Below are positions 5,936 to 63,964 of a DNA stretch of 64,000 bases, piece by piece. Below the pieces are notes generated by a model, which saw only the letters and a program-made list of their open reading frames with translations, ran no database searches and was not told where the DNA came from. The position numbers and the translations under genes are program-made. Within the stretch, counting starts at the first letter, position 1, and every line of letters begins with the position of its first letter. Location of the stretch: contig CAIKMJ010000052.1 of NCBI GenBank assembly GCA_903828455.1, forward strand, positions 1 through 64,000, in the 5' to 3' direction. Source of the stretch: an uncultured Acidobacteriia bacterium (lineage in GTDB: Bacteria > Acidobacteriota > Terriglobia > Bryobacterales > Bryobacteraceae).

Positions 5936-6355
5936 CGGATTGGTGTGGGGGCGGATCGATGCTACGCAGGATCGATGCGACGCGGGATTGGTGCGACGCA
6001 GGATTGATGCGACGCAGGATCGATGCGGGGCAGGATTGATGCGACGCGGGATTGATGCGACGCGGGATTGACGCGACGCAGGATTGATGCGACGCAGGAT
6101 TGGTGCGAGGCGGGATTGATGCGACGCAGGATTGGTGCGAGGCGGGATTGATGCGGCGCAGGATTGATGCGCGGCAGGACGGACGTGGGGCGGATCGATG
6201 CGGGACGGATCGATGCGAGGCGGATTGGTGCGAGGCGGATTGATGCGAGGCGGATTGGTGGGGGGCGGATTGGTGGGGGGCGGATTGGTGCGGGGCGGAT
6301 CGATGCGACGCGGGATTGATGCTACGCAGGATCGATGCGGGGCAGGATTGTTGCA
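5936..6355. repeat. minisatellite, about 27 copies of a 15/16-nt unit
   Basis: Head-to-tail copies of GGATTGATGCGACGCA and variants fill the gap between the genes at 5886 and 6480. Outer copies are 16 nt; a central block of about eight copies is 15 nt and uses GGC instead of GCA/GCG at the junction. Variation is mainly T/C and A/G at positions 5-7 (GATTGAT, GATCGAT, GATTGGT) and GCGACGC versus GCGGGGC. Because 16 is not a multiple of three, the array is not a maintained coding repeat. It lies upstream of the 5886 gene and downstream of the terminator at 6372. Confidence 0.95.
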
Positions 6356-6371
6356 AGCCAGAGCGGCGGGC

Positions 6372-6413
6372 AAAAAAACGGACCGGGTTCGGCGGCGCGC
6401 CGGGACCCGGTCC
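6372..6413 (-). terminator. rho-independent terminator of the DUF3034-like gene
   Basis: A perfect 9-bp stem, GGACCGGGT (6380-6388) with ACCCGGTCC (6405-6413), around a GC-rich loop. Read on the minus strand the stem is followed by G and seven T residues (complement of 6372-6378). It lies about 70 nt after the stop at 6480 and separates that gene from the minisatellite. Confidence 0.9.
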
Positions 6414-6479
6414 ATTGTTTCGAGGCGTGGAATGCTCCGCTGCGGCGCCTGCGGTTTCCGCAGCGGTCTGCGGGATCGA

Positions 6480-7382
6480 TTATTTGCCGAAGCCGTAGGA
6501 GACGGCGGCGACGAAGCGCGCGCGGGCCTGGAGGTCGATGCCGGGCTGGATTTTGCCGGCGATCTGCGCGACGCCGAGGTCGACGTTCAGCTTCGTGCCT
6601 TTGACGGGGACGATGCGGACGGCGTAGTCGACCGTAGTCGGAATGCTGGCGGCGGGCAGACCCTGGGGGTGATTGCGCTGCTGCGAGATTTCCGAGGCGA
6701 GGATGATGTTGCCGCCGGCGGGTCCTTTGAACACGAAGGCAACGGTGCCGAAGGCCGCCGGGTCCCACGCGGTGGCGTTGCCGGCGAGGCCCCAGAGCGA
6801 GGCGTTGGTATCTTTGACGCCGCCGCTCAGAATGAAGGGCAGACCTTTCACCTGCGTGACGGTTTTGCTGGCGACGAGGTAGAAATCCGCATTGTTGGTG
6901 GTCTTCGCGCTGAGGTAGCCGCCGACGTTGCGGACGCCGGCGCGTTCGATAAATCCAGCCGAGATGGCGGGCAGCCAGTTGCGCTTGCCGGCGTTTTCCG
7001 GAACGACGACGAACTTGGCGTGGACGACGTTAAAGCCGCTGCTCCAGACGGGGCTGAGCGCGTTGCCTCCCTGCGAATGGACGTCGCGGGTGTAGCCGAA
7101 TTCGAGGCGATTGAAGGCGCCTTCGGTGACCGAGAGGGTGTTGAAGTTGCCGAGGACGTTGCCACCATCGAGGATGTGCCAGGCGACGGATGGCATGCCG
7201 AGCCCCTTTCCGGTGGAAGGCGCGGTATAGGCGAAGGGATTGAGATAAACGCCGGTGACTCCTTCGAAGTTCAGACTCTGCGCATTCAGTATGGCCGCGG
7301 GCGCCAGCAGGACGGTGGCCAGCGAGATCGCGATGCGGGTGCGCAGTGAGCGCAGCTGTAGGTTATGGGTTAGGTTTTTCAT
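6480..7382 (-). CDS. outer-membrane beta-barrel-type protein, DUF3034-like
   Basis: 300 residues with a signal peptide (basic start MKNLTHNLQLRSLRTR, hydrophobic core, cleavage after AILNAQ). The mature part begins SLNFEGVTGVYLNPFAYTA, which resembles the DUF3034 family of predicted outer-membrane proteins. The rest is rich in short amphipathic strands with alternating aromatic residues and ends near VAAVSYGFGK, in keeping with a beta-barrel. Function is unknown. Expression probably depends on sigma-54: a near-perfect -24/-12 element lies 30-45 nt upstream of the ATG, and AGGG before the start can serve as ribosome site. A strong terminator follows, so the gene is probably monocistronic. Confidence 0.65.
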   Translation of the reverse strand: MKNLTHNLQLRSLRTRIAISLATVLLAPAAILNAQSLNFEGVTGVYLNPFAYTAPSTGKGLGMPSVAWHILDGGNVLGNFNTLSVTEGAFNRLEFGYTRDVHSQGGNALSPVWSSGFNVVHAKFVVVPENAGKRNWLPAISAGFIERAGVRNVGGYLSAKTTNNADFYLVASKTVTQVKGLPFILSGGVKDTNASLWGLAGNATAWDPAAFGTVAFVFKGPAGGNIILASEISQQRNHPQGLPAASIPTTVDYAVRIVPVKGTKLNVDLGVAQIAGKIQPGIDLQARARFVAAVSYGFGK

Positions 7383-7411
7383 AGTGGACCCTGAAGGGTG
7401 CCGAAGCAGGA

Positions 7412-7427
7412 AGCAAGATGCGTGCCA
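7412..7427 (-). promoter_or_regulatory. sigma-54 (RpoN) -24/-12 promoter
   Basis: Read on the minus strand the sequence is TGGCACGCATCTTGCT, a full match to the sigma-54 consensus TGGCACG-N4-TTGCW. The expected transcription start is about 12 nt downstream of the -12 GC, near 7400, leaving a leader of about 20 nt before the ATG at 7382. The upstream region (7440-7620) is free of genes and could hold an activator site; the perfect palindrome GCGATATCGC lies there. The rest of 7383-7720 holds only this promoter and the terminator at 7646-7702. Confidence 0.8.
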
Positions 7428-7645
7428 CTCGCGCGAATGTGAAAAACAGGTGAATTATGGGGGCGTTTGCCGGCTGTTTCCTCAGTAAAATGAGCGATTC
7501 TGCTCACGCCTGCGCGACAAAACACAGCGATATCGCGCGGCGTGAATTGACACTGCGGGGAGACGAAGGGGCGGCGGAAATTCGACGATTTTTGTAGTCG
7601 GTGCGGTGAGGATCAGGCGGCGGAATGGCTCACGCGCGGGAGGGC

Positions 7646-7702
7646 AAAAAACAACCGGCGATGCGAAGCCCGAGAGGATCCGTCAGGCTTTGCACCGCCG
7701 GT
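7646..7702 (-). terminator. rho-independent terminator of the patatin gene
   Basis: The arms 7654-7670 (ACCGGCGATGCGAAGCC) and 7686-7702 pair at 15 of 17 positions, and the other two are wobble-compatible. On the minus strand the hairpin is followed by GTTTTTTG. It lies just after the stop of the cNMP/patatin gene at 7721. Confidence 0.85.
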
Positions 7703-7720
7703 GGCTGGAGAGGCGGACAG

Positions 7721-9697
7721 CTAGGAGGAGCGCTTCATCCACGGGCCGAGTTTCTGGCCGATGGCGCGTTTGATGGCCGGCATGGCGCGTTCGGTTGCTT
7801 CTTCGCCGCGCTGGATGAGTTCGGCGGAGCGGTAGTATTCGACCCAGGTGAAGTCGCTCAGTTCGGGGTTGATGAGAACGTCGGCGGAGATGGCTTTGAA
7901 GTTGCCGAGTTCGTACTGCAGAATCTGCATCGAATTCATAATGATGTCGAACATATTCGGCAGTCCCTGGCTGTCTTCGAGCCAGGACATGGGATTCATT
8001 TTGTTGAGCTGGCGGATGCTCTTGGAGACGGCGTTTTCGACGCCGAGTTTGAGCGGGGGCACGACGTTGACGGCGATGCAGAGATCGGCGCCCATGCCGT
8101 TGACCACTTCGGCGGGAACCGGGTCGGTGACGCCGCCGTCGACCAGTACCCGTTCGCCGCGCTTGACCGGGGCGAAGACCATGGGGACGGAGGCGCTGGC
8201 GCGGAAGGCGGCGGAGAGGCTGCCGGTGCCGATGGCGACGCGTTCGCCGCTCTGGATGTCGGTGGCGACGGTGCGGCAGGGCATGACCAGATCTTCGAAG
8301 CGCGACCTGTTGCCGAGCAGCGGGGCAAAAATATTGACGAAACGGTTGCCGGCGAGGATGCCGGGTCTGGTGAGCGTGAGGTCGACGGCGAGGAGGGAAT
8401 TTTCCTTCTTGCCGAGGCCGAGCGCGATTTCGATCATTTGCTCGGTGCTGACGCCGGCGGCGTAGCCGACGCCGATGATGGAACCCTGCGAGCAGCCGGC
8501 CACGAGATCGATAAAGATGCCGTTGCGTTCGAGAACCTTGAGCACGCCAAGGTGAGCGATACCGAAGGCGGCGCCGCCGCCGAGGGCCACGCCAACGGTG
8601 GCGCCGAGGATTTTACGCGCGAGCCGGTGCATGGGCAGAGCGGCGGTGGCGTGCGGGGAGCGGCGGATGTAGTCGGCGCCGTCACCGGCGGAAGTGAGGG
8701 CAGCATCCTTGGGTAGTACGAAGGGTTCGCAATGGCTGATGGGGATGCGGTGGGATTTGGGATTTTCGAGGTTGATGACGTGGAAATGCTTGAGGCGGGC
8801 GGCGGGCTGATCGGCGCCGGCGGCAGGGGGAGCGGCGGGCGGCGGCGGGGCGTCGACGATTTCCACGGCGACGTCGGCGAAGCCGGGGACGGAATCCCAG
8901 AGGGCGGGATTTTCGGCCGCCAGATCGAAGATCATGAACGGGAAGCGATCGCTCAGCTTGGAGATCAGGTTGGAGGCGCGTTCGCTGTAAAAGCTGACGG
9001 GGTGTTCGCCGAAGACGGGAACCTCGACGAGGAAGACGCCGTCGCGGTGCTGCTGCATGAGGTCGTTAAACGCTTCGGGCCCATGGGTGAGGGCGTCGGA
9101 GAGGAGATCGGCAACGGTGCCTTCGGCTCTGGTGAGGCCGGGATGGACGTGGACCATGAGGACGTCGGCGCCGGTGAGATCGTGCAGGATGCCGGCGAGC
9201 GAGGTGGCGACCATGGACTTGCCTTTGAGGCCGGGTTTGCCGCCCACGGCAATGGTGAGCGTGGCGCCGCGCGTGACTTCGCCCTTGCTGGTGGCGGCGA
9301 GACGTTTACAGAGTACGCGGGTGAAGTATTCGAGGGCGCGGGGGTTCTTGAGGAAGAGGCCGTTGAAGGCGGTGCGGTCCAGCCAGACGAGGCGGACGCG
9401 GCGAGAGGCCTGAACGGTGGCGGTGCGCTTGCCGCCCTGGAGCAGAGCCATTTCGCCGAAGAAGTCGCCGCGTTTGAGGACGGCGGCGAGGCGCTGCTGC
9501 TGGCCGTCGCTGGCGAGGACTTCCAGTTCGCCGTCGAGCACGATGTAGAAGCGGTCGCCTTCATCGCCCTGACGGCAGATGACGTCACCCTTTTGTTTTG
9601 ACTCTTCAACGAACAGATCCTTGACCGCGTCGATATCGGCGCGGCTCAGGAAGCTGAAAATCGGGATGGTGGATAGTATCTCGTGCCAGTCAGCCAT
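7721..9697 (-). CDS. cyclic-nucleotide-binding, P-loop and patatin-like phospholipase fusion
   Basis: 658 residues, three modules. Residues about 10-130 are a cNMP-binding domain with the phosphate-binding cassette FFGEMALLQGGKRTATV. Residues about 145-290 resemble a ParA/MinD-type P-loop domain, starting AVGGKPGLKGKSMVATSLA, with a deviant Walker A. Residues about 360-560 are a patatin lipase: oxyanion glycines GVALGGGAAFGIAHLG, nucleophile GCSQG, and dyad aspartate in VDGGVTDPVP. The layout recalls NTE-type lysophospholipases, which are membrane-associated and gated by the cNMP domain. No clear signal peptide is seen. AAGG lies about 10 nt before the ATG, and a strong terminator follows. 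The middle module may be vestigial. Confidence 0.85.
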   Translation of the reverse strand: MADWHEILSTIPIFSFLSRADIDAVKDLFVEESKQKGDVICRQGDEGDRFYIVLDGELEVLASDGQQQRLAAVLKRGDFFGEMALLQGGKRTATVQASRRVRLVWLDRTAFNGLFLKNPRALEYFTRVLCKRLAATSKGEVTRGATLTIAVGGKPGLKGKSMVATSLAGILHDLTGADVLMVHVHPGLTRAEGTVADLLSDALTHGPEAFNDLMQQHRDGVFLVEVPVFGEHPVSFYSERASNLISKLSDRFPFMIFDLAAENPALWDSVPGFADVAVEIVDAPPPPAAPPAAGADQPAARLKHFHVINLENPKSHRIPISHCEPFVLPKDAALTSAGDGADYIRRSPHATAALPMHRLARKILGATVGVALGGGAAFGIAHLGVLKVLERNGIFIDLVAGCSQGSIIGVGYAAGVSTEQMIEIALGLGKKENSLLAVDLTLTRPGILAGNRFVNIFAPLLGNRSRFEDLVMPCRTVATDIQSGERVAIGTGSLSAAFRASASVPMVFAPVKRGERVLVDGGVTDPVPAEVVNGMGADLCIAVNVVPPLKLGVENAVSKSIRQLNKMNPMSWLEDSQGLPNMFDIIMNSMQILQYELGNFKAISADVLINPELSDFTWVEYYRSAELIQRGEEATERAMPAIKRAIGQKLGPWMKRSS

Positions 9698-9825
9698 CTA
9701 TATACCTTAGAACATCAGGCTGGAAATTCGCAGCAATTTCTGAATTGCAAAACAATGAATCGGGGCTCTTTGCAGTATTTTTCCGGCAAGGGCGCGCAGA
9801 ATGAGTTGCCCGATTTACGCAGGGA

Positions 9826-10266
9826 TTATGCGTCTTCCAGCCAGCGGCGCATCTGGTCGCGGGGAACGAGGCCGGCCTGCTGGCGCACGACCTTGCCGCC
9901 GCGCATGACGACGAAGTTGGGGATCGACTGAATGCGAAAGCGGCCGGCGAGCTGAAAGAGGGCTTCGGTATCGACTTTGAGGACGAGGGCGCGGCCGGCC
10001 ATCTCCTTTGCGAGGGCTTTGACTTCCGGGGCGGCCATGCGGCAGGGGCCGCACCATTCGGCCCAGAAATCGATGAGAACCGGGACCGGGGATTCGTTTA
10101 CCAGAGCGGCGAACTGTTCATCGCCGGCGACGTCGAGCGGTTCATCGAGAGGCGGGATAGGGGCGTGGCAGGAGCCGCATTTGCCGGTGTGGGCGAGGTG
10201 ACGGGCGGGGATGCGGTTGGTGGTGCCGCAGGCCTCGCAGGGCCGCAGGAGGGCAGCTTCAGTCAT
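9826..10266 (-). CDS. trxC: thioredoxin 2 with N-terminal zinc ribbon
   Basis: 146 residues. The N-terminal CEACGTTNRIPARH and CGSC give a four-cysteine zinc ribbon, as in TrxC. The thioredoxin domain follows with active site FWAEWCGPCRMAAPEV and the cis-proline region IQSIPNFVVM. It reduces protein disulfides in the cytoplasm and is typically linked to oxidative stress. It begins 18 nt after the stop of the spermidine-synthase-like gene at 10285, on the same strand, so the two may be cotranscribed. The 128-nt gap down to 9698 (the start of the patatin gene) carries no feature I can name. Confidence 0.9.
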   Translation of the reverse strand: MTEAALLRPCEACGTTNRIPARHLAHTGKCGSCHAPIPPLDEPLDVAGDEQFAALVNESPVPVLIDFWAEWCGPCRMAAPEVKALAKEMAGRALVLKVDTEALFQLAGRFRIQSIPNFVVMRGGKVVRQQAGLVPRDQMRRWLEDA

Positions 10267-10284
10267 GGCGGGGCATCGCTTCCA

Positions 10285-12762
10285 TTATTGTCCGCCGGAT
10301 TGTTTTGCGACGGCGGCTGCGAGGGCGGCGAGGCTGGCGGGCGAGCCGGCGAAGACGGGGCCGGGTGAGCGGCGGTAGGTGAGCATGTCGCGATAGAGAT
10401 TATCGGCGATGTTGGAATTGATGCCCCAGCCGGCGAGATAGGAGAGGCGGAGGTTGGAATCGCGATTGATTTCGGCGCCTTTGGTCCAGACGCCGAGGTC
10501 GGACTGCTGGCCGGCCCAGGTGCCGAACAGATCGGCCACCGAAGCGATGCCGATGCCGGCGAGGGATTCGCGGACGGGGGCGTAGTCGGGACGGGCGTAG
10601 CGCGCGGCGACGGCATCGAGATCGATGCGGAGAGGTTCCACCTGGCCGAGGAAGACCATGTCGTAGCCGGCGCCGTCGCGCGTGTTGGCCCAGACGGAGG
10701 CGTTGGGAAAGGCTTCGAAGAAGGTCTGGAGTTCGCTGCGAATGGTTTGTTCGTCGGTTTCGTAGAGCGGGACGTAGAGCGAGAAATAGCCGCCGGGATT
10801 GAGGTGGCGTTTGACGGCTTCGAAGTACTCGACCGAATAGAGGGCGGCGGTGCCTTTGACGAAGACGTCGAGGGGATCGGAGGCGATGATGTCGTACTTC
10901 GCGTTGGTGGTCATGAGGAAGTGGCGGGCGTCGTCGAAGACCACGTGGGTTTTGGGATTGAGATAGACGGCGTAGTCCTGCGCGGCGAAGAATTCGGTGG
11001 AAGTGGGGGGGATGACGGGTTCGATTTCGCAGACGGTGATCTTTTCGATTCCGGGATAGCGGGTGAAGGTGCCGGCGGAGACGCCCGCGCCGAAGCCGAT
11101 GCCGAGTACCGACTTCGGATTCGGATGCAGGAGGCCGGGCAGGTGGCCGACCATGCGCTGCAGTTTCATGTCGAAGATTTCCGTGGTGGCTTCGACGTGG
11201 CCGTTGACGTTGACGTACACCGCGCCGTTATTCCAGCGGGAAATTGCGACCGAAGAGTTGCGGCCTTCGACAACTTTGAGGATGGTGGAGAGGCCTTTAT
11301 CGGCGTTCATCATGCGGCCGTAGGCGATCAGTTCGCCAGGGACGGCGGGAAGCGCCCAGGCGAGCGCGGCCGAGGCGGCGAGGCTGGCCGGCAGCAGAGC
11401 GCGCCAGAGGATGGAGCGGCTGCGCATGGCGAGCGGGCCGAGGACGAAGAGGGCGCTGGCACCGGATACGACGAGCAGCAGGCGCTGGCAGTTCTGCGTG
11501 CCGATGGCGGGAATCAGCCACAGGCTGATGGCGAGGGCGCCGACGATGCCGCCGAGGGTGTTGGCGGCGTAGACGGCGCCGGTAACTTTGCCGCTGTCTT
11601 CGGCGCGCGAGCGCAGGGCGGCGGCGCAGGCGAGGGGGAAGCTGACGCCCCACAACAACGATGCCGGCAGGACGGCCCAGAGGCAGCGTTTGAGGTCGAG
11701 GGCGAACATCTGCCAGTGGCTGGAGGTGGTGATGAGGTCGTCATTCCAGTAGGGAAGGATTTGCGCGATCATGACGGCGGCCCAGATGATGCCGAGAGTC
11801 TGGAGCAGCTGGCAGAGGCCGAGCATGGGGGCCGGGCGCAGGCGGCGGATGACGGAGGAGGCGGCGGCGCCGCCGATGGCGAGGCCGATGAGGAAGACGG
11901 CGAGGATGATGGAGAAGACGTAGACGGTGCCGAGCAGGAGCATGCCGAGAAGGCGCGTCCAGACGACTTCGGCTCCGAGGGCGCAGGCGCCGGAAAGGGC
12001 GGTGGTGAGGTAGATGGTCCAGAGGGGGAGGGGGTCGCGGAGGGTGTCGTCGGCGGGGGCGGTTGCGGCTGCTTCGGGTTCGGCGGGATTCTGCGTAGCG
12101 AGGTGTTGTGTGGCGAGGTGCTGTGTGGCGAGGTGCGGTGAGGCTGAGCGGCTGAGCATCCAGCTGACGGCGGCGACGAGGAAGTTCAGGGCGGCGGCGC
12201 ACCAGGCGGCGGTGGCCATATCGAAAACACGAAGCAGATAGAAGCCGGCGACGAGGCAGCCGGCGACGGCGCCGGCGGTGTTGGCGCCGTAGAGCAGGGC
12301 CCACCAGGAGACGCCTTCGGGAGTGTTTTCAATCCAGCGCACGATGGCGGGGAGCGAGGCGCCCATCAGTATGGTGGAGGGCAGCATGGCGATGGCGGCG
12401 ACGACGCCGCGCAGCAGCATGCCGGGCAGGCCGTGTTCGGCACCGGTGACATAGACGGCGGTGATGAGCGGCATGGCGGCGGTTACGATGACGCCGAGCA
12501 GACCGATGCCGAGTTCGAGGCCCGCGTAAACCCGCAGCGGGTGCAGGTTGGCCGCGGCCTTCGAGCGCGGCAGCGCGAGGCTGCCGATGCAGAGCCCGCC
12601 CATGAAGGTGGCCAGCAGGATGCCGAGCGAGACCGAAGTGGAACCGATGGCCAGCTGCAGCACCTGGTACCAGGCGACCTCGTAGACCAGGGCGGAGCAG
12701 CCGCTGGCGCCGAACAGGAGCAAGAGCAGGAAGAGGGAGAGGGAGGATCGTTGGGCGGGCAT
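10285..12762 (-). CDS. fused multi-pass membrane/spermidine-synthase-like protein
   Basis: 825 residues. An N-terminal transporter-like membrane domain of about 12 helices (to roughly residue 500) opens LLLLLFGASGCSALVYEVAWYQ, a signature of this fused family. A C-terminal Rossmann domain follows with VLGIGFGAGVSAGTF, CEIEPVI and IIASDPLDVFVKGTAAL. The last motif keeps an acidic active loop closer to spermidine synthase than the protein at 3064. Substrate is unknown. An in-frame 15-nt repeat (12100-12145) inserts LATQHLATQHLATQ into the loop after about residue 210. The upstream region is occupied by another 15-nt repeat array. Confidence 0.75.
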   Translation of the reverse strand: MPAQRSSLSLFLLLLLFGASGCSALVYEVAWYQVLQLAIGSTSVSLGILLATFMGGLCIGSLALPRSKAAANLHPLRVYAGLELGIGLLGVIVTAAMPLITAVYVTGAEHGLPGMLLRGVVAAIAMLPSTILMGASLPAIVRWIENTPEGVSWWALLYGANTAGAVAGCLVAGFYLLRVFDMATAAWCAAALNFLVAAVSWMLSRSASPHLATQHLATQHLATQNPAEPEAAATAPADDTLRDPLPLWTIYLTTALSGACALGAEVVWTRLLGMLLLGTVYVFSIILAVFLIGLAIGGAAASSVIRRLRPAPMLGLCQLLQTLGIIWAAVMIAQILPYWNDDLITTSSHWQMFALDLKRCLWAVLPASLLWGVSFPLACAAALRSRAEDSGKVTGAVYAANTLGGIVGALAISLWLIPAIGTQNCQRLLLVVSGASALFVLGPLAMRSRSILWRALLPASLAASAALAWALPAVPGELIAYGRMMNADKGLSTILKVVEGRNSSVAISRWNNGAVYVNVNGHVEATTEIFDMKLQRMVGHLPGLLHPNPKSVLGIGFGAGVSAGTFTRYPGIEKITVCEIEPVIPPTSTEFFAAQDYAVYLNPKTHVVFDDARHFLMTTNAKYDIIASDPLDVFVKGTAALYSVEYFEAVKRHLNPGGYFSLYVPLYETDEQTIRSELQTFFEAFPNASVWANTRDGAGYDMVFLGQVEPLRIDLDAVAARYARPDYAPVRESLAGIGIASVADLFGTWAGQQSDLGVWTKGAEINRDSNLRLSYLAGWGINSNIADNLYRDMLTYRRSPGPVFAGSPASLAALAAAVAKQSGGQ

Positions 12763-12790: not shown

Positions 12791-12880
12791 TCTCTGCTGT
12801 GCGGCTCTTTGCTGAGCGGCGCTTTGCTGTGCGGCGCTTTGCTGTGCGGCGCTTTGCTGAGCGGCGCTTTGCTGAGCGGC
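12791..12880. repeat. six copies of a 15-nt tandem repeat
   Basis: Unit GCTTTGCTGAGCGGC, with CTGTGCGGC variants. It fills most of the gap between the divergent starts at 12762 and 12960, so promoters for both genes must be embedded in or next to it. Confidence 0.9.
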
Positions 12881-19528: not shown

Positions 19529-19657
19529 ATGGCGGACGGCAAAGAAGAACGCGAAGAGCGGAAGAAGCGGCTGGAGCAGGAGAAGGTGACGCGTCCGGAG
19601 GACCGGAGCGGTTACGAACAGCCGTACGACTGGGAGCCGGAGCGGCAGGAATCGTAG
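19529..19657 (+). CDS. small charged protein, 42 aa
   Basis: ATG at 19529, 4 nt after the epimerase stop; AAATGGTGAAGGGG lies upstream. The product starts MADGKEEREERKKRLEQEK, a highly charged helix, and ends with an acidic tail GYEQPYDWEPERQES. No homologue is recognised. The tight spacing and balanced charge pattern favour a real small gene translated with the epimerase. Its stop codon lies inside the first unit of a 17-nt tandem repeat. Confidence 0.45.
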   Translation: MADGKEEREERKKRLEQEKVTRPEDRSGYEQPYDWEPERQES

Positions 19658-19706
19658 CACGCACAGATTCAGAGCACGCACAGATTCAAAGCACGCAAAG
19701 ATTTAA
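19656..19706. repeat. three copies of a 17-nt tandem repeat
   Basis: Unit AGCACGCACAGATTCAA, with one or a few changes per copy, starts on the stop codon of the 42-aa gene. From 19707 to 19907 I see nothing recognisable. Confidence 0.85.
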
Positions 19707-19907
19707 ACAAGCGTGACCGGGGCTGGCCCGTCATTTTCGCAATGCCCGCGGCAGGTTCCCGAGACAGTTTCCCGAGGATCATTTGGGCGGGCGATATGGA
19801 GTCGTCGCGATCCGACAACCGGCCGGCGTCACCGAACGAAGTGATCGCATCGACCGGGCGGCGCGCTGCGATGTCGGCAGTAGCGCTGGATAGCGGACGC
19901 GAACAGG

Positions 19908-20201: not shown

Positions 20202-20266
20202 GTGGACGCCGCGCAGGCGCTCGCCCGCGTTACGACACGCGCTCGCCCGCGTTAAGAGGGGAAGTA

Positions 20267-20317
20267 TTCATGCCATTTCTCCATTCATGCCATTTTTCCA
20301 TTCATGCCATTTTTTCA
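20267..20317. repeat. 17-nt tandem triplication inside DUF4160 remnant
   Basis: TTCATGCCATTTCTCCA and two near-identical copies, within the 3' end of the DUF4160 coding sequence. Confidence 0.9.
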
Positions 20318-20434: not shown

Positions 20435-20473
20435 CCCGGTCGACATGCCCGGTCGACATGCCCGGTCGACATG
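20435..20473. repeat. 13-nt perfect tandem triplication inside DUF4160 remnant
   Basis: CCCGGTCGACATG occurs three times without a mismatch, shifting the reading frame of the DUF4160 gene by 26 nt. Confidence 0.95.
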
Positions 20474-21492: not shown

Positions 21493-22230
21493 ATGGCAGA
21501 CATTCTGGAGCAACTGGCGGAGAAGCTGAAACAGGCGCTGGGCGCGGAGCTGGTGTCGGTGATTCTGTACGGATCGGCGGCATCGGGCGACCGGCAGGAG
21601 AAGTTTTCCGACTACAACGTGCTGTGCGTGCTGAACCGGCTGACGCCGCGCGAACTGGCGGCCACCGAAACGGTCTTCCGCTGGTGGAACGCGCAGGGCA
21701 ATCCGGCGCCGCTGCTGCTGACGGCGCAGGAAGTGGCGAGCTCGACCGATTGTTTTGCGATTGAGTTCCACGACATCAAAGAGAGCCACCGGCTTCTGTA
21801 TGGCGCGGATGTGGTGAGCGCGCTGACGGTGGAAAACACGTACTACCGGGCGCAGGTGGAGCGCGAGCTGCGCGCCAAGCTGCTGCGGGTGAGGCAGAAG
21901 GCATCGGCCATTCTTTCCGACAACGCCGCGCTGCGGCAGCTGCTGGCCGATTCGGTTTCAACCTTCTGCGTGCTGTTCCGCCATGCGCTGATCCTGCACG
22001 GCGAGAAGGCGCCGGTGAAGAAGCGCGAGATTATTGCGCGGGCAAAAGAGCGGTTCGGGCTGGATGCGGCGCCGTTCCTTTCGCTGCTCGATCTGCGCGA
22101 GCAGAAGGTGAAGGCGAAGGAGATGGAACCGGGAGCGGTGCTGGCTGCGTATCTGACAGAGATTGGTAAAGTCATCGATGCCGTCGATGCGCTGGAGAAG
22201 ACGGATGCGCGCGAGGGTGTTCGGAACTGA
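21493..22230 (+). CDS. nucleotidyltransferase-domain protein
   Basis: 245 residues. The N-terminus has the minimal nucleotidyltransferase motif: SVILYGSAASGDRQEKFSDYN, with G-S and the first acidic pair degraded to D-Y-N, so catalysis is uncertain. The C-terminal half is helical, HEPN-like. It is set between TPM (2-nt gap) and LemA, and is probably cotranscribed with both. The last codons and the TGA lie inside a 16-nt repeat, so the present C-terminus (EGVRN) was probably shaped by the duplication. Confidence 0.65.
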   Translation: MADILEQLAEKLKQALGAELVSVILYGSAASGDRQEKFSDYNVLCVLNRLTPRELAATETVFRWWNAQGNPAPLLLTAQEVASSTDCFAIEFHDIKESHRLLYGADVVSALTVENTYYRAQVERELRAKLLRVRQKASAILSDNAALRQLLADSVSTFCVLFRHALILHGEKAPVKKREIIARAKERFGLDAAPFLSLLDLREQKVKAKEMEPGAVLAAYLTEIGKVIDAVDALEKTDAREGVRN

Positions 22231-22889: not shown

Positions 22890-22900
22890 AGCGTTGGGTT

Positions 22901-25404: not shown

Positions 25405-25415
25405 GGGGCGGACCC

Positions 25416-27775: not shown

Positions 27776-27780
27776 GCCTA

Positions 27781-47924: not shown

Positions 47925-48010
47925 GGCGGCCGCCTTCGGGCGTCACCGCGGAAAAACAACTGCAACCTTCCGGCGCTCCGGGGAGTAAACTTAGGCAGCC
48001 GGAATACTTC

Positions 48011-49909
48011 ATGAAACTCTTCCCGAACCGTCCGATTTTCCGCGTCCTTGCCGGCACAGCGCCGCTGGTCGCCGCAGCGGTAATTGTGGCGTCCACCGCC
48101 TGGGCGCAGTCCGACCCGCCAAAGAAAGAGGAGCGGGAACGCGAAAGAAAGACCGAGCGATCGGCGCCGGCCCCGGCCGGCCAGCAGCAACGCTCGTCGC
48201 AGTCCACCCCCGCCCCTGCACCTTCGCAACCGGCCCCGGCGCCGCGACCTGCCCGGCCGGCTTACACCCAGCCCGCCAACACCCAGCCCGCCAACACGCC
48301 GCCCGCTTACACGCCGCCCGCGCCGCAAACGTCCCGGCCGTCCCAGCCCGCGTATACCCCGCCAGCCGCGCCCACGCCGCGCCCTTCGCAGCCTGCGTAC
48401 GTTCCACCCGCGCAAACTCCTCGCCCATCCGCCCCGCAGGCCGCACCCGCTGAAGCCCAGCCGGGCCGCCAGACGCCGCGCGTTACTAACACTCCGGCTA
48501 TGCGCCCGGTCTACACGGCGCCGCCCTCGGCGGCTGTCGCCTCGCGCACCCCGACCGGCGCTTCCGTACTGAATAACGAAGGCTCGCGTTCCGTTGTCCA
48601 GCAACTGAACACGTCGCGCGCCGGCATGCAGGGCATCAATGCCCGGGCGGTCCCGCAGGGAGCCGTCACGGTCCACCCCACCGGCCACGTCACCATCGCC
48701 ACCGCCAATGGTGGCAGTTACGGTCTGCGCCCCAACGGCACCGTCGCCTCCATCTCCGCGCAGGGCCGCGCCGTGAATTTCCGTCCGGATGGCCGCGTCG
48801 CCGCCATCCATACGCCCACCCTTGACGTTGTGCGCGGCGTGCACGGCGAGCGCGTTATCCGCACCGTTCGTCCGGACCACACCATTCTCGTCAGCAACGG
48901 CCCGCGCAACGGCTATCTGGAACGGACGGTTGTGGTCCGCAACCAGACCGTTATTCAGCGCACGTACGTGGTCAACGGCGTCGTCTCCACCCGCGCCTTC
49001 GTCAGCTATCCGTATCGCGGCATGGTGGTGCCCATGTACGTTCCGCGCGTCTATTACGCACCCGCGTTTTACGGCTGGGCGTTCTATCCGTGGTCCACGC
49101 CCGTTGTCTTCTCGTGGGGCTGGCGCCGCGACCCGTGGGTGGGCTTCTACGCTGGCTACTACCAGCCGTATCCTGTGTACCCTGGCCCCAATGCGTGGCT
49201 GACCGACTACTATCTGTCGCAGACGCTCGCCGCCTCCTACGCCGCGCAGAATCAGGCCCCGCCGCTGCCTGGCTACGGGCCCGATCCCAACGCGCCTGCG
49301 CCCACCGGCCCCCAGGCGGGCGAAGTCTACGCTCCGGCCGATACGCCGATTACGCCGGCCCTGCGCGACGCCATCGCCGCCGAAGTCAGCCGCCAGCTCG
49401 CCTACGAGAATGCGGTCGCTTCCGGACAGGCCCAGCCCACCGTTCAGCAGCTGCGCAACGCGCTGCAGCCCGGCCGCGTCTTCGTCGTCGCCTCCAACCT
49501 CCAGGTGCCCACCGCCGACGGGCAGACGTGCGACCTCACGCCCGCCGACGTGCTGCAGATGAACAACGCGCCCTCTGACGACGCCACCAGCGCCATCCTC
49601 ACCGTCGCCAGCAGCAAGAAGCTCGACTGTCCCGCCGGCATGGACGTCGCCGTCCAGATGACCGACCTCGCCGAAATGCAGAACAACATGCGCGCCCAGA
49701 TGGATGCCGGCCTCGAAGCGCTGCACTCCAGTCAGGGCCAGAACGGCCTGCCCGCTGCGCCGGCCGCCGCCATGGCCGCGCCGTCGCGCCCGGCGCTCGA
49801 CGTCCCGCTCCCGCCCGACCCGAATGTCACCGGCCTTCTCGACGCCCAGCAGCAGGACGCCCAGAACGCCGAACTTGCCACCGTGCAGGCCGTCGCCGCC
49901 ACCAATTAA
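48011..49909 (+). CDS. secreted Pro/Gln-rich protein, envelope type, 632 aa
   Basis: Signal peptide ending AWAQ. Residues about 30-190 are a low-complexity Pro/Ala/Gln linker with tandem TQPANTQPANTPPAYTPP. Repetitive VTVHPTGHVTIATANGGSYG and GRAVNFRPDGRVAAI strands follow. An aromatic-rich central section (YYAPAFYGWAFYPWSTPVVF) and a helical C-terminal domain (DAIAAEVSRQLAYENAV) follow. No family name can be given, but the strands are reminiscent of envelope-binding repeats. It is probably in one transcript with the next secreted gene (11-nt gap). Confidence 0.6.
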   Translation: MKLFPNRPIFRVLAGTAPLVAAAVIVASTAWAQSDPPKKEERERERKTERSAPAPAGQQQRSSQSTPAPAPSQPAPAPRPARPAYTQPANTQPANTPPAYTPPAPQTSRPSQPAYTPPAAPTPRPSQPAYVPPAQTPRPSAPQAAPAEAQPGRQTPRVTNTPAMRPVYTAPPSAAVASRTPTGASVLNNEGSRSVVQQLNTSRAGMQGINARAVPQGAVTVHPTGHVTIATANGGSYGLRPNGTVASISAQGRAVNFRPDGRVAAIHTPTLDVVRGVHGERVIRTVRPDHTILVSNGPRNGYLERTVVVRNQTVIQRTYVVNGVVSTRAFVSYPYRGMVVPMYVPRVYYAPAFYGWAFYPWSTPVVFSWGWRRDPWVGFYAGYYQPYPVYPGPNAWLTDYYLSQTLAASYAAQNQAPPLPGYGPDPNAPAPTGPQAGEVYAPADTPITPALRDAIAAEVSRQLAYENAVASGQAQPTVQQLRNALQPGRVFVVASNLQVPTADGQTCDLTPADVLQMNNAPSDDATSAILTVASSKKLDCPAGMDVAVQMTDLAEMQNNMRAQMDAGLEALHSSQGQNGLPAAPAAAMAAPSRPALDVPLPPDPNVTGLLDAQQQDAQNAELATVQAVAATN

Positions 49910-49920
49910 AATGAAACGGC

Positions 49921-50604
49921 ATGCTTGCGTTTAGATTTGCGGCGCCGTTACTGGCCTTGCTCTGCGCTTCGTCGTTGTTTGGGCAGGGCACGGCAATTGC
50001 GCAAAACAGCGCTCCGCCCGCGCTGTCGGCGTCGTCGCTTCTCGATCCCATCGACAAGATGAACCTCCCGGCCGTCATGCGCATGATGCAGGAGGTGCTC
50101 AACGCGCAGGGCAAGCTGACCTTTCAGGCCGTCGGCGTCTTCACTCCGGCGGCGCCCAGCAAGCCGGTCCGCATGGCCTCGGAAACTTCGTTCACCATTT
50201 CCGACGCCGTTGCCGACGCCGCCCGCTGCACGCTGTCGCTGCATTCGGTGGATGAATCGCGCGACGACACCGGCGCGCGCGCCACGGCCGAATCGTCCAT
50301 TGTGCTTGCGATGCGCGACGTGGAGGCGCTGGAAATCCAGTCGGTCATCGAAGGCTACCGTACGGGCACCGAGCGCAACACCAGCTGGGATGTGTTTCCG
50401 CCCACGTTCATCCTGCACGTGCTGCTGAACGCCGGCAAAACTTATCAGGATCACACGCGCTTCACCGACGACCGCGGCGTTGTCACCGAAGCCGACAGCG
50501 AAATGCGCGGCGGCTTCTGGCTCTACTTCGGCGAAGAACCCATCGCCCGCCGCATGGCCGAGGCCATGGAGCGCGCCTCCATGCTCTGCGCCGGCAAGAA
50601 ATAG
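49921..50604 (+). CDS. secreted protein of unknown function, 227 aa
   Basis: Signal peptide MLAFRFAAPLLALLCASSLFG. The mature part has strands such as VRMASETSFTISDAVADAA, RCTLSLHSVDESRDD and EALEIQSVIEGYRTGTER, and a C-terminal helix (RRMAEAMERASMLCAGKK). It looks like a small periplasmic domain; no family identified. It follows the 632-aa secreted gene by 11 nt and precedes, convergently, the YXWGXW gene. Confidence 0.5.
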   Translation: MLAFRFAAPLLALLCASSLFGQGTAIAQNSAPPALSASSLLDPIDKMNLPAVMRMMQEVLNAQGKLTFQAVGVFTPAAPSKPVRMASETSFTISDAVADAARCTLSLHSVDESRDDTGARATAESSIVLAMRDVEALEIQSVIEGYRTGTERNTSWDVFPPTFILHVLLNAGKTYQDHTRFTDDRGVVTEADSEMRGGFWLYFGEEPIARRMAEAMERASMLCAGKK

Positions 50605-50673
50605 GCGCAAAACACGAAACGCCGGACGGGCAACCCGCGCTGTTCCGCGGATCGCCGCCCGGCGTACATTCCG

Positions 50674-50748
50674 TCGCTGCCTGAAGCTTCGCTGCCTGAA
50701 GCTTCGCTGCCTCAAACGTCGCTGCCTCAAACGTCGCTGCCTCAAACC
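50674..50748. repeat. five copies of a 15-nt tandem repeat
   Basis: TCGCTGCCTGAAGCT (two copies) followed by TCGCTGCCTCAAACG (three copies), between two convergent genes. Confidence 0.95.
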
Positions 50749-50759
50749 GGCAGCCGGCT

Positions 50760-51743
50760 CTACTTCGGTTCGCGCTTTTCGTTGTGCTTCTCGTTATAGA
50801 TCTGCCGGCTGGCCTTGTTCTGTTCCTGCGTGATCTGCTTGTGCTCGGCCGGCGTCAGTTTCCCGCCGTTGGCCGCGCGGTCCGCCGCAACATTCCGGTT
50901 GATGTTCTGCTCGGTCTTTTCCGCGCGAATGGTCTCGCCGGGGGTCAGTTGCCCGCTCTTCACGCCCTGCGCGATGCGCTGCTGCTGGTTGGCGCGGCGC
51001 TCGTTGACGGTGCCCATCGCCGGATTCCCCGGATGCCCGCCGTTGGCCGACGCCAGCTGCGTGCGGTCGTGGCTCGCCATCTCGACGTGCGATGCCTGTG
51101 CGGGCGTGGCCGCCACGTGCTGTTCCGTCATCGCCGTCCGCTCGAAGGCCGTCGGCTGCGCCTGCACGCCGCCCGCTCCGTTGAAGCTCACGCGGTTCAC
51201 AACCGTGGTGTTGCGGATCACCGTCCGGTCAACATAAACGTTCCGCACCACCGTGGTGTTCACCGCCATCACCGCCGTGTTGTAGCGGAAAACATTGCCC
51301 GCCCACGCGCCTCCGATGAAGCCGACACCGGCATAACCGAACCCGTAATTCACGCCGCCGTAAAAGCCCACGTGCGGACCCCAGTAGCCTTCGTGCCAGA
51401 CATAATTGCCGCCCACGAAGCCCCAGTAGCCCGGCGTCCACAGCACGCCCACGCGCGGCGGAGCCACCCACACGCCAGGCACCCAGTAATAACCGTCCGG
51501 CCCGTACGCCCAATAGCCTGGAATCCAATGATGGCCTTCCACGGGACAAGGCGGCTGCTCGTACACGGGCAGCGCGGGCGGCGCGATATTGATCGAGATC
51601 GCAATGCCGGCCTGCGCGGCGGCCGGCGCGAGCAGCATGCCGGTTCCCAGCATGGCCGTTCCTAACAGGCCCGGTCCCAATATGCCCTGTCCCAACATGG
51701 TCAGCCCAACGAGGAGGCTCTGAACGTTTCGGTTTATTCTCAT
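50760..51743 (-). CDS. YXWGXW-repeat secreted protein
   Basis: 327 residues. N-terminus MRINRNVQSLLVGLTMLGQG leads into a signal sequence with a degenerate 15-nt repeat (LGQGILGPGLLGTAMLG). The mature part has Trp/Tyr/Gly motifs (HHWIPGYWAYGPDGYYWVPG, VLWTPGYWGFVGGNYVWHEG), the family's hallmark. A Gln/Asn-rich helical tail follows. Function in the periplasm is unknown. ATG 51743 is chosen because GGAGGG lies 9-14 nt before it. Confidence 0.75.
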   Translation of the reverse strand: MRINRNVQSLLVGLTMLGQGILGPGLLGTAMLGTGMLLAPAAAQAGIAISINIAPPALPVYEQPPCPVEGHHWIPGYWAYGPDGYYWVPGVWVAPPRVGVLWTPGYWGFVGGNYVWHEGYWGPHVGFYGGVNYGFGYAGVGFIGGAWAGNVFRYNTAVMAVNTTVVRNVYVDRTVIRNTTVVNRVSFNGAGGVQAQPTAFERTAMTEQHVAATPAQASHVEMASHDRTQLASANGGHPGNPAMGTVNERRANQQQRIAQGVKSGQLTPGETIRAEKTEQNINRNVAADRAANGGKLTPAEHKQITQEQNKASRQIYNEKHNEKREPK

Positions 51744-51942
51744 CTCTCTGGCCCTCCGGCCTTTCACTACAACTTCTCAAGCCCGCATTTCGCGCCGGAG
51801 TTGTGGCAAATCCCACGTATTTTCCATGAAAAACATTTCATCGATTTGGGTATTACATCCTGTAACGCGGCGCGCTGCGAAAGCACTAAGCAGGATATCT
51901 CACTGGCGGCGAACTATCATGTTTCTGGGATGCCTGCCCGTG

Positions 51943-54342: not shown

Positions 54343-54761
54343 GGCCGCTGGCGGCATTTGAGGCCTTTTCGGGCGTCCGGGGCCTTTTGGGGCAGCCGGG
54401 CCTTTCAGGGCAGTTGACGCGCATCGGCGAGACACCCGCCCCACACATTAGAAATCGCCGTCGGATTAGCACCCGCCGCGCTGGGGCAGTAGGCGGCCTG
54501 GACGTCCTGTAAGTTGACTTTTGCCGGAAGTGGCGCGTCGGCTGTCATTCTTACTAGCTTGTTTTCAAGGGGATACGAAGGCCGCTCGGTCCCGGAAGCC
54601 CTTCATTCTCTGCACTTTGCGGCTTCTTCGGAGTGACGTAAATCTGATTGAATTACTATCGTTTCTAAGATTTGCCTGATATCGACGGACTACAATCTGT
54701 TTTAACCTACCTACGTGGCAGTACTAACGGTACCGCCAACTTCGTACGAGGAGATCTCCCA
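54343..54761 (+). promoter_or_regulatory. AT-richer gap with possible promoter for the microprotein
   Basis: 54345-54415 is a degenerate ~18-nt repeat (GGCCTTTT motif). The rest is distinctly less GC-rich than its surroundings. TACAAT at 54691-54696 is a plausible -10 box without a good -35. AGGAG at 54749-54754 precedes the ATG at 54762. No RNA gene is recognised in this gap. Confidence 0.35.
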
Positions 54762-61375: not shown

Positions 61376-61397
61376 TGGATTGCCTCCGTCTTCTTCA

Positions 61398-61472
61398 CGC
61401 TGCCTTCTCTGCTGCTGCCTGCTCTACGCTGCCTGCTCTGCGCTGCCTTCTCTACGCTGCCTTCTTCACACC
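61398..61472. repeat. about five copies of a 15-nt tandem repeat
   Basis: GCTGCCTTCTCTACG and variants, between the two permease genes. It contains the TAG of the upstream permease (61452-61454). Confidence 0.85.
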
Positions 61473-62861
61473 GCGCTGCCGCAGATAGTAAATCGGCACC
61501 CCCAGCAGCACCAGTGCCAGCCCGCGCAGACTGAACGCCGGCTTATTGATCAGCAGAAATATTTCGATCAGCCCCGCGGCAACCATATACACGGCCGGCA
61601 GGATCGGATAACCCACGGCGCGGTAGGGCCGCTCCATCTCCGGGCGCGTTCGCCGCAGCCGGAAAACCCCCGCAATCGTGAGGATATAGAAGAGCAGTAC
61701 AGCAAAGATAACATAATCCAGCAAATCGCTATATTGGCCGGAAAGCGTCAGCAGCATCGTCCAGCCGCACTGCATCCAGAGCGCGAAAACCGGCGTATGG
61801 CGCGTCGGCTCCAGCACGCCGGCGCGCCGGAAAAACAGGTTGTCGTGCGCCATGGTGTAGTACACGCGCGCTCCCGCCAGAATCATTCCGTTCGAACAGC
61901 CAAAAGTCGAAATCATGATCGCGATTGCCATCAGCTTCGTCGCCACCGGACCGAACATCACGCCCACCACCGCCGTCGCCACCCGGTCCTCCGGCGCCGT
62001 CTGTATCTGCGGCAGCGTCAGCACGGAAAGGTAAATGAAATTGCACGCCAGATACAGCACCGAGACGCCGCCCACCCCCAGTCCCAGCGAGAGCGGCAGG
62101 TTGCGGCTCGGATTGCGAATCTCTCCCGCCGTGAACGTCACGTTATTCCACGCGTCGGAAGAAAACAGCGGCCCCACCATGGCCGACCCGACCAGCACCA
62201 CCACCGGCCATCCGAACGTCGCCCCGCCCCAGAATGCTCCGGGACTGGTGAAGTTCGCCGCAATCGCCGCCGGATTCCGCCCCAGCAGAAATCCCAGCCC
62301 CACCAGCCCCAGCAGCGACGCCACCTTCGCAAACGTGAACACATTCTGCACCAGCGCGCCCGACCGCACCCCGCGCGTATTCAGCAGCGTCAGAAAGAAG
62401 ATGATCGAACAGGCCACCGCCTGCTGCGTCGTCACCCCCAGCTTCCCGGACCCCACAATGTAATTCGCCGCCGACACGCCGGGCCAGAAGACGCCCGCAT
62501 ACTTGGCAAACGCCACCGCCACTGCCGCAATCGTGCCCGTCTGGATCACCGCGAACAGCGTCCACCCGAACAGGAATCCCCACAGCCGCCCGAAGGCCTC
62601 CCGCAGATACACGTACTGCCCGCCCGCATGCGGCATCGCCGCCGCCAGTTCCGCGAAGCTCAGCGCCGCAATCAGGCTCAGCGTCGCCCCCACCGCCCAG
62701 CACAACAGCAGCAGCCCGGGCGACTTCACCTGCCGCGCCACATCCGCGCTCACAATGAAGATGCCCGACCCGATCATCGACCCCATCACCAGCGTCGTCA
62801 CCGTCGTCAGCCCCAGCCTTTTCACCAGCCCCGTCGACGCGCTGCCGTTTCCGTCATTCAT
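61452..62861 (-). CDS. APC-family amino acid permease
   Basis: 469 residues, about 12 membrane helices. First helix VTTLVMGSMIGSGIFIVSAD carries the glycine motif. YLREAFGRLWGFLFGWTLFA and NPSRNLPLSLGLGVGGVS are APC features. ATG 62861 overlaps the thiE stop (ATGA). The stop codon lies inside a 15-nt repeat, after the C-terminal tail RQRGVKKAA. Similar in class to the next permease but not a duplicate of it. Confidence 0.85.
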   Translation of the reverse strand: MNDGNGSASTGLVKRLGLTTVTTLVMGSMIGSGIFIVSADVARQVKSPGLLLLCWAVGATLSLIAALSFAELAAAMPHAGGQYVYLREAFGRLWGFLFGWTLFAVIQTGTIAAVAVAFAKYAGVFWPGVSAANYIVGSGKLGVTTQQAVACSIIFFLTLLNTRGVRSGALVQNVFTFAKVASLLGLVGLGFLLGRNPAAIAANFTSPGAFWGGATFGWPVVVLVGSAMVGPLFSSDAWNNVTFTAGEIRNPSRNLPLSLGLGVGGVSVLYLACNFIYLSVLTLPQIQTAPEDRVATAVVGVMFGPVATKLMAIAIMISTFGCSNGMILAGARVYYTMAHDNLFFRRAGVLEPTRHTPVFALWMQCGWTMLLTLSGQYSDLLDYVIFAVLLFYILTIAGVFRLRRTRPEMERPYRAVGYPILPAVYMVAAGLIEIFLLINKPAFSLRGLALVLLGVPIYYLRQRGVKKAA

Positions 62862-63511
62862 AAGTTGAGCCCCTGATCGAATTGTTCGCCCAGCCGCCGC
62901 CACTCCGTCATCCGCTGCCGCATTGCCGCCGCGCTCCACGGCACGGGATGAAGATCGGCAATCACCGCCACCGAATCGGCCCCCGCCGCCCAGCAGAGCG
63001 CCGCATTCTCCCGCGTGATTCCGCCGATCGCCACCAGCGGCCGCGACGTTATCTCCCGCACCGCCCGCAACTGCTCCAGCCCCACCGTCGGACTCGGCTG
63101 CTCCTTCGACGCGGTGGGAAACACCGGCCCGAACGCCACATAGTCCACTGGCTCGCCGGCCGCCGCCTGCATCTGCTCGGCGCTGTGCGTGGAAAACCCC
63201 ACCACCGGCAGCGGTCCCACCACAATGCGCGCATCCTCCGGCGTCAGATCCTCCTGGCCCAGATGCAGCCCGGAGCCGGTCAGCGCCGCGCAATCCGCCC
63301 GGTCGTTGATCACAAACCGCGACCCCGCCTCGCGGCACCGCGTCGCCAGCCGGTGCGCAAGGTGGAACATCTCGCGGCTCCAGAACTCCTTGTGCCGCAG
63401 TTGCAGGATGCGCGCGCCGCCTTCGAGCAGCGCTTCCGCCGCCTGAAATGGATCGGCCTCCAGCCGCCGCAGTGTCGCAATGTCGAGGATCGGATAGACG
63501 CGTGGGAGCAA
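62858..63511 (-). CDS. thiE: thiamine-phosphate synthase
   Basis: About 217 residues, TIM barrel. LPRVYPILDIATLRRLEADP opens the barrel, ILQLRHKEFWSREMF binds the thiazole and pyrimidine, FVINDRADCAALTGSGLHLG is typical, VDYVAFGPVFPTASK is the phosphate pocket, and PLVAIGGITRENA is near the end. It joins HMP-PP and thiazole phosphate to thiamine monophosphate. TTG 63511 fits the family; TTG 63571 would add 20 residues. No TPP riboswitch was found upstream. Confidence 0.85.
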   Translation of the reverse strand: MLPRVYPILDIATLRRLEADPFQAAEALLEGGARILQLRHKEFWSREMFHLAHRLATRCREAGSRFVINDRADCAALTGSGLHLGQEDLTPEDARIVVGPLPVVGFSTHSAEQMQAAAGEPVDYVAFGPVFPTASKEQPSPTVGLEQLRAVREITSRPLVAIGGITRENAALCWAAGADSVAVIADLHPVPWSAAAMRQRMTEWRRLGEQFDQGLNL

Positions 63512-63706
63512 TCCGCGATTATCCCAAATACGGCCGCCCGCAGAAACCTGTTCGTAAAGATGTTTTTCCAAGGCGAGTTTTCCGCGGGCGTCAGTTTATT
63601 TCCTCAACTCTGTCAGGAATTTACCCGCGTGCCCCCGCCGCGGCCGCCTTTCGCCGTGTTACTTGTGAGTCCGACAGGTATATCGATTCGGAAAGGAGCA
63701 CATCTC

Positions 63707-63964
63707 ATGGCCACCGCGAAAAATCTTATCGCCACCGCGAAAAATCTCATGGCCACCGCGAAAAATCTCATGGCCACCGCGAAAAATCCCATGGCCACCG
63801 CGAAAACATCCATCGGCGGCGCGCTTGGGTTCGTTTTTTCAAAATCCAAAACAACGCCCTTGAACATTCCGATCAATCGCGAGCCGGGTCCGCAGCTGGT
63901 CTCCGCCGCCCGGCCCGGGAAAATCTCCTATCCGCCCGCCCGGGACCCCCGCCGGCACTGGTAA
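63707..63964 (+). CDS. small protein with five heptad repeats, 85 aa
   Basis: GGAAAGGAGCACATCTC precedes the ATG at 63707, a strong ribosome site. Residues 1-35 are five tandem copies of MATAKNL and variants, from a 21-nt repeat. A short hydrophobic segment GGALGFVFS follows, and then a Pro/Arg-rich tail ending RDPRRHW. The repeats form an amphipathic helix with Lys every seventh residue. No family recognised; complete within the window. Confidence 0.55.
   Translation: MATAKNLIATAKNLMATAKNLMATAKNPMATAKTSIGGALGFVFSKSKTTPLNIPINREPGPQLVSAARPGKISYPPARDPRRHW

Follow-up and report, generated by a model that had tools for sequence, protein, structure and literature searches.

The window analysed here is a 64,000 nt stretch (positions 1 to 64,000, forward strand) of contig CAIKMJ010000052.1 (C52) from the draft genome of an uncultured Acidobacteriia bacterium of the family Bryobacteraceae (GCA_903828455.1; 4.40 Mb in 80 contigs), and it carries many short tandem repeat arrays, most often with units close to 15 nt. 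Using Tandem Repeats Finder (TRF), with overlapping hits merged and cut-offs set at scores of 50, 60 or 70, 31 arrays were detected in the window at a score of at least 50 and 21 at 70 or above. Twenty dinucleotide-preserving shuffles of the window gave 12 arrays in total at the lower of these cut-offs and none at the higher. A preliminary description of this DNA had named fifteen sites, had the repeats begin at 5936, and had held that units of 15 and 16 nt dominate. TRF recovers arrays at all 15 sites, each starting within 6 nt of the place given, and 5936 fits the start of the largest array. Ten of the 21 arrays scoring at least 70 have units of 15 nt (six arrays) or 16 nt (four), the remainder being of 13 (one), 14 (two), 17 (two), 21 (two), 24 (three) and 34 nt (one). 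Arrays of the window include the following.

5953-6354: the largest array, 25.6 copies of 16 nt, degenerate (82% match), in the gap between two minus-strand genes
12098-12144: 3.1 copies of 15 nt, within the spermidine-synthase-domain gene 10285-12762
12795-12880: 5.7 copies of 15 nt, between two divergent genes, on the promoter side of both
19656-19707: 3.1 copies of 17 nt, where a short reading frame with weak support (19529-19657) ends
20266-20314: 2.9 copies of 17 nt, in a 1 kb gap
20435-20473: 3.0 copies of 13 nt, all perfect, also in that 1 kb gap
22216-22262: 2.9 copies of 16 nt, spanning the stop codon of 21493-22230
22839-22891: 3.4 copies of 16 nt, spanning the stop codon of 22278-22844, a LemA-family gene convergent with a RecX-domain gene
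25414-25592: 5.3 copies of 34 nt, 10 nt past a CpsB/CapC-type gene
25939-26012: 5.3 copies of 14 nt, spanning the stop codon of 26000-26509
27093-27152, minus strand: 4.0 copies of 15 nt, in frame, within the stretch that extends a sigma-70-type (ECF-like) factor at its C-terminus
27781-27825, minus strand: 3.0 copies of 15 nt, in frame at the N-terminus of the same sigma-70-type factor if its start is 27856
36665-36716: 2.2 copies of 24 nt, between genes
46314-46436, plus strand: 5.1 copies of 24 nt, within the PepSY-TM gene 45507-46751
48264-48321, plus strand: 3.9 copies of 15 nt, called non-coding; with a gene start at 47921 they would lie in frame in a proline-rich N-terminal part
50672-50747: 5.1 copies of 15 nt, in a 155 nt convergent gap
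54362-54413: 2.8 copies of 18 nt, 20 nt past a stop codon
57969-58064: two adjoining 16 nt arrays, at the junction of two minus-strand genes
61397-61465: 4.9 copies of 14 nt, spanning the stop codon between two amino-acid permease genes
63702-63806: 5.0 copies of 21 nt, on the upstream side of minus-strand gene 62858-63511 and also where a weak plus-strand call (63707-63964) starts

The arrays extend well beyond the window. A further 647,804 non-N bases of the same genome (G000) hold 82 arrays at a score of at least 60 (1.27 per 10 kb), compared with 24 in the window (3.75 per 10 kb), so that the genome sample comprises 106 arrays in 712 kb. Genes were called with a simple purpose-built caller, trained on the source genome and applied to its relatives too. 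By position, 103 of the 106 arrays were classed as coding (47) or as non-coding or partial (56), while the other three lie outside the sequence between called genes; all arrays not classed as coding number 59. Stretches made up only of N were excluded (L102, L106 and L116 of the source genome; L146, L157, L159, L168, L170 and L171 of the genus; L182, L237, L244, L246 and L248 of the family). The short contigs C1, C13 and C43 of the source genome consist of N throughout.

Units of the 56 non-coding or partial arrays have a median length of 16 nt (quartiles 14 and 18.25), and 41 of the 59 arrays not classed as coding have units of 12–17 nt, with a mode at 14–16 nt; neither set contains a unit of 11 nt or less. 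The 14 nt and 16 nt classes hold 10 arrays each, and are unaffected by the caller's tendency to place some gene starts late, by which at least two 15 nt arrays of the window (27781-27825 and 48264-48321) are called non-coding but are probably coding, somewhat inflating the 15 nt count. Exact periodic runs were counted wherever two or more copies and 11 or more matched positions occurred, a criterion that misses two-copy tracts shorter than 11 nt. The 109 kb of non-coding DNA hold 47 such runs: a single one has period 5, none has period 6–11, forty-four have period 12–20 with a peak at 15, and two have period 32–34. When each stretch was shuffled once, no run with a period of 12 or longer appeared.

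As the preliminary description had stated, the units are unrelated to each other, with a mean best identity of 0.583 against 0.574 when one unit of the pair is shuffled (1200 sampled pairs, 70 units). A shared or mobile repeat family, such as repetitive extragenic palindromes or miniature inverted-repeat transposable elements, was rejected, since no common sequence occurs across sites, and a CRISPR array was likewise rejected, as the units run head to tail without spacers. The 1200 sampled pairs showed no excess similarity that would indicate shared short motifs, although no dedicated motif search was made. Unit composition equals that of the flanks: among 48 oriented arrays the A content is 0.186 in units and 0.188 in flanks, and G minus C does not differ significantly (p 0.17). 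There is no excess of hairpins in the units (p 0.83, 53 units), and hairpin-driven slippage was rejected on this ground.

The short class is strongly concentrated in this genome. Non-coding arrays with units of 12–17 nt occur at 3.76 per 10 kb of non-coding DNA in the source genome (41 in 109 kb), against 0.19 in nine same-genus genomes (4 in 212 kb, all four of 15 nt), 0.06 in twenty genomes of the family (1 in 166 kb), and none in 138 kb of a far set made up of 34 loci titled betaproteobacterial and one same-order genome; the non-coding fractions of the relatives are approximate, as the caller was trained on the source genome. The class is about 20 times denser here than in the stretches sampled from the nine same-genus genomes. 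For arrays of all kinds at score 60 the excess is nearly fivefold, with 106 in 712 kb compared with 31 in 974 kb of the nine same-genus genomes. Six same-genus genomes range from 0.13 to 0.74 per 10 kb at a score of at least 60 (the high values being G009, 0.57; G018, 0.71; and G005, 0.74), four family genomes from 0 to 0.25, and one same-order genome has 0.12. In a preliminary count with the cut-off at 70, near kin yielded no array in 56 kb and three in 256 kb; other loci had one in 125 kb, betaproteobacterial loci five in 578 kb, and Nitrospirota loci five in 189 kb, these last with units of 24–174 nt. The Nitrospirota set is not part of the final comparison of the 12–17 nt class. The abundance of arrays here and their scarcity in the sampled relatives point to a process peculiar to this lineage. 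Small genome size as the sole cause was rejected, since the same-genus genome G010 is similarly small (4.2 Mb).

The G010 genome is also syntenic with the window from 26.0 to 63.5 kb (tblastn), and its 33 kb of syntenic sequence contains no array at a score of at least 60, including at the counterpart of array 61397-61465. The junction at 58078-57931 offers a direct comparison: two 16 nt arrays fill 96 bp in the window, and the tblastn matches of both genes in G010 end about 24 nt apart (match ends were used here because the caller, through a late gene start, gave the G010 junction a gap of 197 nt). A second case is the sigma-70-type factor (27071-27856, minus strand, 261 residues), which has 15 nt arrays close to both of its ends. 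All 15 same-genus orthologues, 57–74% identical across the matched part, stop matching at residue 225–236 and end 0–14 residues further on, while the protein of the window continues beyond the orthologue ends in a tail containing array 27093-27152. The N-terminal array is missing from both orthologues with an alignable start (G010 and G009), the other N-termini being too divergent to judge. Elsewhere in the region, a stretch of about 4 kb with three called genes and two arrays (47925-51918) lies between the dCTP deaminase gene and the next conserved gene, and the two flanking conserved genes are adjacent in G010.

The preliminary description had placed most arrays at gene ends or across stop codons. 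Among the 24 window arrays scoring at least 60, five touch a stop codon; a stop is no more than 50 nt away for 10 of them, and a stop or a start for 13. Eight are inside called genes. Over the genome sample, density is highest in convergent gaps (9.75 arrays per 10 kb), followed by divergent gaps (8.03), same-direction gaps (5.24) and coding sequence (0.78). The check for enrichment within 50 nt of stop codons gave 23% of arrays against 13% of random positions, but starts are enriched as well (21% against 14%). The location between genes therefore stands, while a special link to stop codons does not: with divergent gaps nearly as dense as convergent ones, and the 29 arrays of same-direction gaps spread over the four quarters from stop to start (7, 6, 11 and 5), targeting of stop codons was rejected, and the pattern is mostly a general intergenic enrichment.

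Such enrichment, together with a constant unit size and variable sequence, is what would be expected if the arrays were functional and a protein or RNA read their constant spacing, as Subirana and Messeguer suggest for repeats of 20–21 or 52 nt (PMC8161180). We consider this unlikely, as the units have neither shared similarity nor a hairpin preference, the syntenic G010 sequence (the one long region compared) has no array at score 60, and some arrays just lengthen the ends of proteins.

Within genes, the reading frame is almost always preserved. Unit length is divisible by three in 46 of 47 coding arrays, compared with 21 of the 56 non-coding or partial ones. Not every coding array is new, since in several genes units of 21, 24, 27 and 33 nt can be aligned to relatives with no gap and are ordinary old protein repeats. 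The genes near arrays that have Pfam matches are ordinary chromosomal ones and include peptidyl-arginine-deiminase-type, CN-hydrolase, spermidine-synthase-domain, LemA, RecX, CpsB/CapC, sigma-70-type factor, dCTP deaminase, amino-acid permease and MutS1 proteins. No signs of phage or plasmid were seen among the Pfam-matched genes scanned (38 queries covering 37 distinct stretches and 36 genes, not every gene of the window), and a plasmid search with the dCTP deaminase returned 16 records, every one below 60% identity. Its nearest named loci, at 73–82% identity, come from metagenome-assembled Acidobacteriia, Bryobacterales and Bryobacteraceae, from which the family Bryobacteraceae is also inferred for this genome. 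An artefact of assembly or binning might be suspected in a draft of 80 contigs, since repeats are prone to misassembly, but it is barely credible given the preserved frame of the coding units, copies that carry private mutations, flanks that are syntenic with a relative, and the ordinary character of the genes. At one end of the window (383-12762), peptidyl-arginine-deiminase-type and CN-hydrolase genes lie near two long spermidine-synthase-domain proteins, one of which matches the domain below Pfam's cut-off, and this is possibly a polyamine cluster.

Array density varies along the genome with base composition. Over 70 stretches of about 10 kb, it correlates with GC content (rho 0.63) and with absolute GC skew (rho 0.52), and the correlations persist when the window is removed (0.62 and 0.46). 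Non-coding arrays per 10 kb of non-coding DNA number 14.2 where absolute skew is at least 0.15, 9.1 at 0.08–0.15, and 1.7 below 0.08. Strong skew is not by itself enough for the short class to appear: three sampled stretches of other family genomes with skew of 0.24–0.28 (27 kb in total) contain two arrays, whose units are 45 and 25 nt long. GC skew in the window is far stronger than in the syntenic G010 region. The cumulative skew peaks at 40252, where its sign switches independently of gene strand. A dif motif was not found in the replication-terminus check, and skew is not simple past about 65 kb; a replication terminus at this peak (40.25 kb) is not claimed.

Copy numbers are low, three being the commonest value (21 of 56 non-coding or partial arrays), and they fall with unit length (rho −0.38, p 0.006, 53 arrays), which fits slippage limited by distance. 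Array lengths tend toward whole numbers of units: among arrays of at least 2.7 copies and at least 85% match, coding ones included, 26 of 45 end within 2 nt of a whole number, where 14.8 are expected. Array ages are mixed: uniformity reaches 99% or more in twelve of the 56 non-coding or partial arrays and is below 75% in one. Isolated two-copy duplications show extra periodicity of 0, 0, 0, 1, 1, 1, 2, 3, 5 and 6 nt, and we read this small sample as meaning that end homology is little needed. A dedicated enzyme could account for several of these traits: paired nicks, or a staggered integrase-like cut, placed about 1.5 helical turns apart and followed by fill-in would give units of about 15 nt over repeated cycles. 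The narrow size class, near-whole-unit copy numbers, few two-copy tracts and little end homology agree with this, as does the near confinement of the arrays to one genome among those sampled. Set against it are units without a common sequence and sizes spread from 12 to 20 nt rather than fixed; there is also no candidate gene in hand, though none was searched for, and such an enzyme seems rather improbable.

Loss of the end-joining proteins Ku and LigD, leading to a burst of duplications through error-prone alternative repair, was also considered. In a search of 19 genomes of the genus, Ku and the LigD polymerase domain had no match in the source genome and were matched in 18 of the 18 others, the LigD of G014 being a fragment below the cut-off. 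Ku and LigD lie within a few kb of mutS in G001, G006, G008 and G012. However, in a draw of 120 genomes of the family, 43 had no Ku match (the source genome and 42 others), and 17 of these others, sampled at 4–80 kb each (G020, G022, G025 and 14 more), hold only 6 arrays at score 60 in 386 kb, or 0.16 per 10 kb. End-joining loss is therefore not sufficient and is disfavoured as such, and we regard this explanation as very unlikely. Fill-in during end joining is an unlikely present source of arrays, given that Ku and the LigD polymerase domain are unmatched. SbcD had no match in the source genome either, with only matches below the cut-off in four of the 19 genus genomes.

The best explanation, which we hold at about even confidence, is that short tandem duplication, followed by slippage, has increased across the whole chromosome specifically in this lineage, with selection filtering the outcome. 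First, a block of roughly 12–20 nt would be duplicated in place, with little or no prior repeat needed at its ends, and further copies would then arise through strand misalignment during replication or repair synthesis. If stable re-pairing requires a unit of at least about 12 nt and slippage declines with distance, a peak at 14–16 nt could result. Selection would leave arrays in gaps, at protein ends or, within genes, as multiples of three, a step that corresponds to the pattern seen, and the copies would then decay through mutation. A change in replication or repair is likely to lie behind the high rate in this lineage, a rate that peaks in stretches rich in GC and with strong GC skew. The preliminary description had proposed a local process that repeats whatever sequence is present, and this agrees with the unrelated units, flank-like composition, lack of hairpin preference, single size class and genome-specific abundance. 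Its further suggestion that one process made all the arrays is not established, in view of the old protein repeats among the coding units.

Several observations weigh against this explanation. Simple slippage predicts many two-copy tracts, whereas only 14 of the 56 non-coding or partial arrays have two copies, fewer than have three, and isolated exact two-copy duplications number just 10. With these 10 cases the end-homology test is weak (mean 1.9 nt against 1.0 nt for simulated blunt duplication, p 0.08). The lower size limit holds for arrays and not for births, as two-copy duplications shorter than 11 nt escape the counts, and the GC-richer short units expected from a stability threshold appear as a trend that is not significant (p 0.27). 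In one 15 nt coding pair (L127) the corresponding stretch of the orthologue is of about equal length, so the pair has no apparent insertion. By the fraction of bases in arrays, the genome exceeds the genus only twofold (1.00% against 0.46%), since relatives carry some long-unit arrays. The link to GC content and skew is a correlation. MutS1, MutL, the PolA 5'-3' exonuclease domain, RecJ and XseA are all present; loss of mismatch repair or of an exonuclease was accordingly rejected, and no missing repair gene explains the burst.

Among known repeats, the variable-number tandem repeats and minisatellites used in strain typing, whose hallmark is copy-number variation between strains, have a similar range of unit sizes and copy numbers. 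Burkholderia satellites of 12, 14 and 16 nt, in the parts of the survey of prokaryote satellites cited here, derive from microsatellites of 6–8 nt and form sequence families (PMC6749651). The present arrays resemble the satellites of that survey as short-unit repeats abundant in single species and differ in that their units are unrelated. No 15 nt class in Acidobacteriota is named in the literature searched.

Bacterial repeats of constant size and variable sequence are closer. In the sections of the report cited here, based on a search requiring at least four copies, only 20–21 or 52 nt are described as constant sizes among 1241 genomes (Subirana and Messeguer, PMC8161180). Species-specific abundance, one preferred size, unrelated sequences and a mostly absent coding of amino-acid repeats are common to both, but here the peak is at 14–16 nt, size is less strict, and three is the commonest copy number. 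The 59 arrays not classed as coding include two with 20 nt units, none of 21 or 52 nt, and one of 53 nt, whose unit resembles four shorter sub-units.

The other close parallel is with the repeats of Borgs, extrachromosomal elements of archaea. As described in the portions of the Borg paper drawn on here, these are many unrelated arrays, nearly absent from comparison genomes, with perfect, A-rich units often accompanied by flanking partial repeats, and their mechanism is left open there (PMC9879509). Both systems have many unrelated arrays in one genome and few in comparison genomes, units divisible by three within genes and mostly not so between them, and some arrays beginning at gene ends. 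The densities are alike, with 56 repeat regions in 902 kb of Black Borg (0.62 per 10 kb; PMC9879509) and 44 in 712 kb here (at least 2.9 copies, 50 nt, imperfect copies allowed), also 0.62 per 10 kb. The differences are that copies here are often degenerate, only 12 of 56 non-coding or partial arrays reaching a 99% match; that composition equals the flanks and is not A-rich; and that the arrays lie on a bacterial chromosome. As to flanking partial repeats, array ends here tend toward whole units, and the 10 isolated two-copy pairs carry 0–6 nt of extra periodicity. It is conceivable, though doubtful, that the lineage has acquired a duplication activity whose inherent step is about 15 nt. Such an activity would need no end homology or sequence signal, reach Borg-like density across a chromosome and produce in-frame protein tails.

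The birth of short tandem repeats is poorly understood, and a Borg-like density, a sharp size class and repeat-poor relatives of the same genus provide a clean comparison, in which the changes of this lineage are candidate causes of the rise in duplication and slippage proposed above. The repeats are also seen adding new ends to a regulator, the sigma factor. The closest known systems are the Borg repeats and the constant-size, variable-sequence repeats of bacteria, with which the arrays described here share their main traits, while having a size class of their own near 15 nt.

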